A model generated the notes under the pieces. It was not told the DNA's origin. It did no database searches and saw only the letters and a list, made by a program, of their open reading frames with translations. Made by a program: the position numbers and the translations under genes. Shown piece by piece: positions 5,824 through 46,203 of a DNA stretch of 51,875 nt. Position 1 is the first letter of the stretch. Every line of letters starts with the position of its first letter. Source of the stretch: Candidatus Nomurabacteria bacterium (GTDB lineage: Bacteria > Patescibacteriota > Minisyncoccia > Phycocordibacterales > UBA9973); assembly GCA_943348755.1 (NCBI GenBank), contig CALQYS010000005.1:1-51875 (forward strand). The letters run 5' to 3'.

Positions 5824-5990
5824 TAGAGACCTAACCCTTCAATTTCAAAGTTTAAGGCATGGTCAAATCCAGCTAAGGAGTGAAAAACCCGTCATTGGGA
5901 TTACCTTAGCTGGTCATACAGGGAAACCTGTATTGGATAGCGAAAGCTATCACCCAGTGATGGGCTTTTTGTTACCAATTATTAGATTAA
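5824..5990 (+). ncRNA. conserved pseudoknotted leader RNA, copy 1
   Basis: About 165 nt upstream of the protease, matched by a copy at 39351-39520. A nearly invariant 5' block (GACCTAACCCTT ... AAGGCATGGTC) can form a stem with an internal loop. P1 is CCAGCTAAGG (5869-5878) with CCTTAGCTGG (5904-5913). P2 is ATACAGG-GAAA-CCTGTAT (5916-5933). P3 is GATAGC-GAAA-GCTATC (5936-5951). P4 is CCCGTCATTGGG (5888-5899) with CCCAGTGATGGG (5953-5964), whose 5' strand lies in the P1 loop and so makes a pseudoknot. CTTTTTG follows P4. P1, P2 and P4 show compensatory changes against copy 2. It could be a cis-regulator or a free RNA of the element. Confidence 0.75.
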
Positions 5991-21239: not shown

Positions 21240-21838
21240 TTTAGTTCTTCTGCTTTCACATCTTTAGCGTGGTCGATAAAAAGTATTCCATTTAGATGAT
21301 CTGTTTCATGCTGAAAAATCTGTGCCAGCAGTCCTGATCCGCCACGGGTGAATTTCTTGCCATTTTCGTCATATGCTGACACTGTCGCCTTTTTAGATCG
21401 AAAAGTCTTTCCATAAAGTGGGCGAACTGAAAGGCAACCTTCTGGCACCCAATTTTTCTCTCTGGAAAGTTTAGAAATTTTTGGGTTGATGAAAACCATA
21501 TCTTTTACGGCAGGATCTTTTAGGTCTTCGAGGGCAGAATTTCCCGAACGGGGTCTCTCGAAGGGCGACGGCCCGAGAGGGAGCGCTGATTCAGCAGAAT
21601 CAGACAGCGACCCCGTGCGGGGAGATTCTGCCCGGAGAACTTTGCCAGATACAACAAAAATTCGCAGTGAATATCCGATCTGTGGCGCTGCTATGGCCAC
21701 ACCGTCATCTTGGCTTTTGAGCGCTTCGGACATTTCTTTCAGCACCTTCTTTATTTTAGCTGTTTTGATATCAGCAACTAGGACTTCTTTTGCTACATTT
21801 CTTAATACTTTTTCATCTTTTTGAAGAATTTTCTTCAT
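21236..21838 (-). CDS. def: peptide deformylase with an in-frame palindromic insert
   Basis: A 200-residue deformylase. Conserved motifs are present: GVAIAAPQIG (motif 1), EGCLSVRP (motif 2, metal Cys) and HETDH (motif 3, HExxH). Between the strand RIFVVSGKV and DMVFINPKI lies an extra segment of about 33 residues (SPRTGSLSDSAESALPLGP...), Ser/Pro/Gly-rich and encoded by a 100-bp palindrome at 21533-21632. Normal deformylases have only a short loop there, so the insert should sit on the surface away from the metal site. The start touches the hisS stop without a gap. Confidence 0.95.
   Translation of the reverse strand: MKKILQKDEKVLRNVAKEVLVADIKTAKIKKVLKEMSEALKSQDDGVAIAAPQIGYSLRIFVVSGKVLRAESPRTGSLSDSAESALPLGPSPFERPRSGNSALEDLKDPAVKDMVFINPKISKLSREKNWVPEGCLSVRPLYGKTFRSKKATVSAYDENGKKFTRGGSGLLAQIFQHETDHLNGILFIDHAKDVKAEELK
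21533..21632. repeat. 100-bp palindromic element inside def
   Basis: Outer arms GGCAGAAT/ATTCTGCC, then CCCG/CGGG and ACGGGGTC/GACCCCGT. Inner hairpins are CTCTCG/CGAGAG and CTGATTC-agca-GAATCAG. It is much richer in GC than the gene and is read through in frame. It has the same length as the palindrome in the methyltransferase gene at 45580. Confidence 0.75.
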
Positions 21839-39350: not shown

Positions 39351-39520
39351 TAATATAATAATTGGTAGCAAAAAGCCCACCACTGAGTGATAGCTTTCGC
39401 TATCCATGCAAGTTTCCCTGCATGACCGATCAAGGTAGCCCCAATGGCGGGTTTTCTACTCTTGATCGGTTTTTTTGACCATGCCTTAAACTTTGAAATT
39501 CAAGGGTTAGGTCTCTATTA
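39351..39520 (-). ncRNA. conserved pseudoknotted leader RNA, copy 2
   Basis: Reverse-strand counterpart of 5824-5990. P1 CCGATCAAG (39469-39461) with CTTGATCGG (39434-39426), P2 ATGCAGG-GAAA-CTTGCAT, P3 GATAGC-GAAA-GCTATC and P4 CCCGCCATTGGG with CTCAGTGGTGGG, then CTTTTTG. Against copy 1, P1 has four paired substitutions and P2 and P4 one each, while the 5' block GACCTAACCCTT ... AAGGCATGGTC differs by a single base. It ends about 20 nt before the protease ATG. Confidence 0.75.
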
Positions 39521-45231: not shown

Positions 45232-46203
45232 ATGGAAATTAAAATTTTTGTTTCAAAAGATTGGAAAGATTATGAACTTCTTGATACCGGTAACGGAGAG
45301 AAGTTGGAGAAATTTGGTCCATATACTTTCGTCCGTCCGTATGAAAATGCGGTGTGGGGAAAAACCTTATCTGCAGGGGAATGGGCAAAAGCAGATGGTA
45401 AATTTTGGAGCTCCAAAGAAGGTGCTAAGGCTGGATGGAAAATGCGGAGTGAAATTGAGGAAAAATGGGAAATGTCGTATAAGAATATTAAATTCTTAGC
45501 GAAGCCAACCCCATTTCGTCACTTAAGTTTTTTCCCCGAGCAGGCGAGTCATTGGGATTTTATAGAACAAAAAATTAAAGAGGCGAATCTGGCAAGGAAT
45601 TTTCTTGAAACTGCGCCCTCGGAGGCAAAAGGACAGGGGACCCACACGTTTCTTAAAAATCCCTTGCCAGATTCGCCTCTACCTAAAATAAAATTTTTGA
45701 ATTTGTTTGGCTACACGGGTGTAGCAAGTCTTTTTGCTCTGCGGGCCGGTGCGGAAGTCACACACCTAGACGCTTCGAAACAATCTCTCGCATGGGCAAA
45801 AGAAAATCAAAAATTGTCGGGGTTGGAAGATTTACCGATGCGCATCATTGAAGACGATGTTCTCAAATTTCTAGAACGCGAAGCAAAGAGAGGGAATAAA
45901 TACGACGCCATCATCATGGATCCACCCAAGTTTGGTCGTGGGCCAAAAGGGGAAGTGTGGAAGATAGAAGAAATGCTACCGAAACTTCTCTCCAGTGTAA
46001 AGAATATCTTGAGCCACAAACCACTTTTTGTTATTTTGACTTCTTATGCTGTTGATTCTTCTTCGCTTCCACTGGGCTATGCCCTCAAAGAAACAATGAA
46101 GGATTTTACTGGCAACATTGAGGTGGGGGAAATGTGTATCTTGGAAAAATCAAACGGACGACTTATCTCACTTGCGAATACTGCTGTCTGGAGTATAATG
46201 TGA
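45232..46203 (+). CDS. class I SAM-dependent rRNA methyltransferase-like protein with in-frame palindromic insert
   Basis: A 323-residue protein of the RlmI/RlmK-like (m5C rRNA) group. The SAM-binding motif I is FLNLFGYTGVASLFALRAGA and the catalytic region is MDPPKFGRG. The N-terminal part (about 1-115) is the usual extra RNA-binding region. Between IEQKIK and LPKIKFLNLF lies a low-complexity segment of about 33 residues (EANLARNFLETAPSEAKGQG...) encoded by a 100-bp palindrome, placed just before the methyltransferase fold. Starts 31 nt after ychF. Confidence 0.9.
   Translation: MEIKIFVSKDWKDYELLDTGNGEKLEKFGPYTFVRPYENAVWGKTLSAGEWAKADGKFWSSKEGAKAGWKMRSEIEEKWEMSYKNIKFLAKPTPFRHLSFFPEQASHWDFIEQKIKEANLARNFLETAPSEAKGQGTHTFLKNPLPDSPLPKIKFLNLFGYTGVASLFALRAGAEVTHLDASKQSLAWAKENQKLSGLEDLPMRIIEDDVLKFLEREAKRGNKYDAIIMDPPKFGRGPKGEVWKIEEMLPKLLSSVKNILSHKPLFVILTSYAVDSSSLPLGYALKETMKDFTGNIEVGEMCILEKSNGRLISLANTAVWSIM
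45580..45679. repeat. 100-bp palindromic element inside the methyltransferase gene
   Basis: Perfect 18-bp arms GAGGCGAATCTGGCAAGG (45580-45597) and CCTTGCCAGATTCGCCTC (45662-45679); further inside ATTTT/AAAAT and GAAAC/GTTTC pair. The reading frame is kept. Same length as the palindrome in def. Confidence 0.8.
46194..46199 (+). promoter_or_regulatory. -10 box, leaderless spacing (membrane protein)
   Basis: TATAAT, 6 nt before ATG 46206; lies inside the end of the methyltransferase gene. Confidence 0.6.

Follow-up and report, generated by a model that had tools for sequence, protein, structure and literature searches.

A palindrome inside a methyltransferase gene of Candidatus Nomurabacteria probably belongs to a dispersed family of insertion elements with locus-specific arms

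The window analyzed here, a stretch of 51,875 nucleotides from Candidatus Nomurabacteria, contains a gene for an SAM-dependent (rRNA-type) methyltransferase of 323 aa (positions 45232-46203, plus strand), which stays open through a palindrome of 102 bp (45579-45680, plus strand) that lies in frame and contains no stop codon. We consider this segment to be a non-autonomous palindromic insertion element, one of several families in Ca. Nomurabacteria with arms that are completed at each site, and assign this reading a probability of roughly 60%. The spreading unit would be an asymmetric core of about 50 nt together with short common inner arms, which would settle in intergenic regions and in protein linkers that tolerate insertions. 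In the linkers, only stop-free and frame-keeping copies would survive, to be translated as extra residues, and at each site the stem would be completed or kept perfect with outer arms specific for that locus.

The palindrome, assigned here to family 1, was delimited by inverted-repeat and folding analysis. It forms an inverted repeat (45579-45611 and 45648-45680) with 33 nt per arm, 88% complementarity and an apical part of 36 nt. The left outer arm (45579-45597, plus strand), which is locus-specific, is perfectly complementary over 19 bp to the right outer arm (45662-45680, plus strand). The conserved core common to the family 1 copies (45604-45654, plus strand) includes the inner stem, with GAAAC as the 5' strand (45607-45611) and GTTTC as the 3' strand (45648-45652), and the apical stretch of highest conservation, CCCTCGGAGGCAAAAGGACAGGGGACC (45616-45642), all likewise on the plus strand. 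Folding of the hairpin beats 200 out of 200 dinucleotide shuffles (z of -6.5 as DNA and -7.0 as RNA). It is the top-scoring stem of the window, and no stem of this length was found in shuffled sequence. The palindrome that the initial annotation had placed at 45580-45679, with perfect outer arms of 18 bp, is confirmed, its ends being correct to within one base each.

The insert sits in a linker directly before the SAM-fold motif FLNLFGYTG, as placed by protein alignment, which bears out the in-frame position just before the SAM fold that had been proposed. From EQA to NLFGYTG, this linker counts 54 residues versus 23 in the empty congeneric orthologues, corresponding to a net gain of 93 bp (31 codons) over the empty site. 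Many congeneric orthologues have such a short linker without a palindrome, and in the closest solved homologue (2igt_A), which lacks the insert, hardly any residues separate HWEWLKNAVETA from the NLFGYTG motif. The absence from the empty orthologues and from 2igt_A agrees with the earlier expectation that distant homologues would lack the segment which, as judged from these alignments, is an insertion.

The family 1 core is present at four places in the genome to which the window belongs. In addition to the methyltransferase copy, it is found between dut and argS, in frame in mnmA and upstream of another gene, so the further genomic copies on which the initial annotation had made its proposal depend do exist. 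Of 60 congeneric genomes, 29 contain the core, and 40 genomes belonging to other families of the order all lack it. Exact core matches across the genome collection mostly carry the label Ca. Nomurabacteria. One contig labelled Burkholderiales (L058, JAMPXW010000004.1) also has a family 1 copy, the surroundings of which are almost the same as at the Nomurabacteria locus L024, and is probably mis-binned. Both loci, as well as L119 and L083, contain a copy about 20 nt upstream of an open reading frame beginning with ATGGCATT(C/T)AT. The arms of these four copies differ and still pair, and they possibly represent long-lived orthologous copies. Viral contigs, considered as a vehicle, yielded no exact match to the core pattern.

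The main oddity of these elements, which the initial annotation had missed, is that the copies have a common apical core, while their outer arms differ at each locus but are complementary. In the comparison set of 80 distinct family 1 copies, the apical core is conserved with a consensus of about GAGCC-TTC-GCCCTCGGAGTCATAAGGACAGGGGACCCAC-GACTC. Each copy has outer arms of its own that are nonetheless complementary to each other, with a median stem score of 17.75 for own arms versus 7.0 for arms combined across copies. The 630 locus-specific outer pairs consist of 585 Watson-Crick pairs, 10 G.U pairs, 12 A.C pairs and 23 others. Since there is no excess of G.U over A.C in these pairs, upkeep of the arms at the RNA level is unsupported, and the distribution fits a DNA-level process. 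Over all stems, A.C pairs did outnumber G.U pairs (44 versus 16), and such an excess would have implicated the antisense strand. It is gone (12 versus 10) without the semi-conserved positions adjacent to the core and was therefore discarded.

The likeliest DNA-level route to the arms would be quasipalindrome correction: within the hairpin, the polymerase would switch templates and copy one arm onto the other, a synthesis that could run into host codons. As a mutational process, the conversion of imperfect palindromes into perfect ones by template switching is well established (PMC7202029; PMC3820800), and the arms were probably completed by such palindrome-templated DNA synthesis. The two ends of the mnmA linker, taken as 18 nt on each side, which corresponds to the native length, pair better than expected by chance (5.27 versus 3.94 ± 0.20), so that in this gene the arms appear to extend into host codons. 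The same test was negative for the ends of the methyltransferase linker, with no arm extension into host codons, and this difference between the two genes counts against the insertion-element reading. A more far-reaching idea, which we put forward tentatively and hold to be somewhat doubtful, is that of mobile hairpins that, on inserting or while being maintained, either copy the target sequence in inverted form or extend into it by templated synthesis. The arms would then be site-specific with host codons included, the hairpins would be strand-specific with respect to transcription, and new linker peptides would arise recurrently throughout the genus.

Alternatively, the elements could insert at the tip of pre-existing palindromes, in which case the arms would represent the target and nothing would be made at insertion. 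Short palindromes without a recognizable core indeed occur in some linkers (L132, L138, L182), one of the empty mnmA sites (L181) has a weakly quasi-palindromic sequence, and an empty methyltransferase site reads, by eye, AGGCCT where the filled one reads AGG...CCT. However, stems at the empty sites L183 and L184 and at most of the empty methyltransferase sites do not rise above shuffled levels. The 172 kb read from the own genome contain few long palindromes that lack a core, two of them being terminator-like, and shuffled sequence gave none. Because of this scarcity, enough ready palindromic targets are not apparent, and we regard this explanation as rather unlikely.

Seventeen family 1 copies are located inside genes, at nine loci, and all of them are open, stop-free and frame-keeping. 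The host genes encode the methyltransferase, MnmA, a CCA-adding-like enzyme, LeuS (two loci), LigA, an FAD-linked oxidase (two loci) and RsmH; names other than those of the methyltransferase and mnmA were assigned by reading the sequences. The genic copies are read in different frames and consequently give different peptides, for example ETAPSEAKGQGTHTF and SPAFALGDKRTGDRH. The core motif TAAGG, which bears a stop codon, is present in 47 of the 63 copies outside genes versus 2 of the 17 inside (p = 4e-6); in other words, it has been lost in 15 out of 17 genic and 16 out of 63 intergenic copies. The insertion of a hairpin inside conserved genes is what would also be seen for an intervening sequence that is spliced from the mRNA or skipped by the ribosome. 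Neither splicing nor skipping would need a kept frame or the absence of stops, and the condition of all 17 genic copies, together with the loss of TAAGG, makes this explanation highly improbable.

The genic copies are in sense orientation at all nine loci (p = 0.004), and copies between co-directional genes likewise mostly have the same sense as these genes (37 versus 8). One sense and one antisense frame are open in the family 1 consensus; stop codons alone therefore do not explain the bias, and the sense-only orientation in genes counts against the insertion-element reading. It would suit a functional RNA hairpin in which a protein, a nuclease or the ribosome binds the core in the mRNA and compensatory selection at the RNA level maintains the stem. 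Covariation of the five-pair inner stem points in the same direction, the combinations being GAAAC/GTTTC, AAAAC/GTTTT, GAGTC/GACTC, GCATC/GATGC and GAAAA/TTTTC. The commonest inner stem, GAGCC/GACTC, has one C.A mismatch, and the inner-stem pairing of the ACACGTTTC copies was taken by reading their sequences and not from the script register. Several copies that shortly precede a start codon at orthologous positions are also consistent with a role in the RNA, as is a core more conserved than the surrounding gene: among the methyltransferase genes of four species, the core is 90-96% identical at the DNA level versus 69-78% for the rest of the gene. This high identity may reflect recent independent insertion at one hot spot, homogenization or selection on the core; since selection is among these possibilities, the core conservation counts against the insertion-element reading.

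An RNA function is nevertheless difficult to reconcile with the lack of a G.U excess in the locus-specific pairs, with the restriction of family 1 to 29 of the 60 genomes of the genus, with its replacement by unrelated palindromes at the same sites and with the location of some copies between antisense genes. In addition, the hairpin remained unmatched in Rfam (gathering score and E 1), save for a chance match to a plant microRNA (E 0.97). We thus judge an RNA function unlikely. The other Rfam matches in the window are tRNAs and two LOOT RNAs (RF03000, a structured RNA of unknown function), located at 5828-5951 on the plus strand and 39389-39513 on the minus strand.

Family 1 is one of several palindrome families in the own genome, and families 1, 2, 9 and D are all dispersed. 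The initial annotation had united the methyltransferase palindrome with an equally long one in def (peptide deformylase) in a single genome-wide family that tolerates translation. A genome-wide and translation-tolerant set does exist and even extends over the genus, but the two palindromes do not form one family; their sequences differ, and their equal length is therefore no sign of common membership. The in-frame def insert (21530-21641, minus strand) is real, with a z of -5.8, and belongs to family D, another dispersed family of the same general kind that is present in 37 out of 60 congeneric genomes. Family 2 is present in 21 of these 60 genomes. Family 9 is smaller (77-78 bp), with the core CTGCGTTAGGTCATAAGGATAAGGCTCTT and about 15 copies in the own genome. 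Its core and inner arms are common to the copies, and the flanks outside are unique at each locus and complementary, with a flank complementarity of 8.27 versus 3.30 ± 0.46 after permutation (none of 2000 permutations was as high). A few family 9 copies have no extended outer arms. Families 1 and 9 may be related, as suggested by a stretch seen by eye in the loop of both (GTCATAAGGA).

With respect to mobilization, we considered REP/REPIN-type sequences moved by Y1 (RAYT-like) transposases. Y1_Tnp domains are found in 44 of the 60 congeneric genomes, in many cases several in one genome and up to 13 matches, and some of the palindromes at insertion hot spots are short, perfect and REP-like in appearance. 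Nevertheless, the own genome has no Y1_Tnp match despite its several palindrome families. Family 1 occurs in 22 of the 44 genomes with a Y1 domain versus 7 of the 16 without (p = 0.77), and no family 1 copy lies beside the four Y1 loci that were read (L191-L194). The Y1 transposase was rejected as mobilizer for its absence from the own genome and the lack of association over the 60 genomes, and a REP-type origin appears very unlikely. The insertion-element reading presumes that some enzyme moves the unit; no mobilizing enzyme was found, which counts against it.

Compared by description only, the closest known counterparts are the Rickettsia palindromic elements (RPEs), to which the Nomurabacteria elements appear analogous; we do not claim membership. 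RPEs are palindromic, measure about 100-150 bp, comprise several families dispersed in a reduced genome, and many of them are in frame in unrelated genes (PMC10969869). The Nomurabacteria elements are similarly palindromic, dispersed and divided into several families (102 bp here, with family 9 being shorter), and they are inserted in frame in unrelated protein genes. Each RPE is described as coding for a conserved peptide (PMC10969869), whereas the Nomurabacteria genic copies use different frames and yield different peptides; unlike in RPEs, the outer arms are also locus-specific. With REP/REPIN sequences, the elements have in common that they are dispersed short hairpins in a genus where Y1 domains are common, but they differ from REP/RAYT systems in their size of about 75-110 bp, their asymmetric core, the location of many copies inside genes and the missing Y1 association. 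Like MITEs, they are short, non-coding, dispersed, palindromic and probably mobilized in trans. MITEs have fixed terminal inverted repeats, whereas the ends of the Nomurabacteria elements differ at every locus. Quasipalindrome correction perfects imperfect inverted repeats, as we propose for the arms, where its action is inferred, but it is a process and not an element family. In Nematomorpha mitochondria, long perfect inverted repeats occur inside translated genes, with both arms coding and locus-specific (PMC6649704). The Nomurabacteria elements resemble these repeats in their location inside translated genes and their locus specificity, and differ by the conserved core that marks each family; the abstract of that account describes no common dispersed core. 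In the literature library that we searched, no paper dealt with elements of this kind in Nomurabacteria, Parcubacteria or the Candidate Phyla Radiation. In-frame palindromic elements, best known from Rickettsia, thus appear in several families in a distant and extremely reduced bacterial group, and the combination of a common core with site-specific matching arms is a trait that a fixed-end mobile-element model does not predict.

Some linkers behave as hot spots for these elements. In 23 of the 32 congeneric genomes read, the stem score of the mnmA linker is at least 14, while shuffled controls do not exceed 12, and several visibly different cores occur in this linker across species (families assigned by eye). 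In the other families of the order, 13 mnmA linkers were readable; none reaches 14, the highest score being 12.5. The methyltransferase linker follows the same pattern, with palindromes of visibly different core families in different species, and the leuS site that holds family 1 in another species is occupied by family 2 in the own genome (by eye). As one linker can hold different families depending on the species, these linkers offer natural replicates for asking how sites are chosen, where the arms originate and how proteins absorb the inserted peptides. In one mnmA linker (L158), a short perfect palindrome lies beside an apparent 3' half of a family 2 element, which suggests nested or replacing insertions at this hot spot. 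A leuS gene with a family 1 copy (L030) also contains a tandemly duplicated in-frame stretch of a different kind (VDPVRERSPQGDRSTASGRAFSN).
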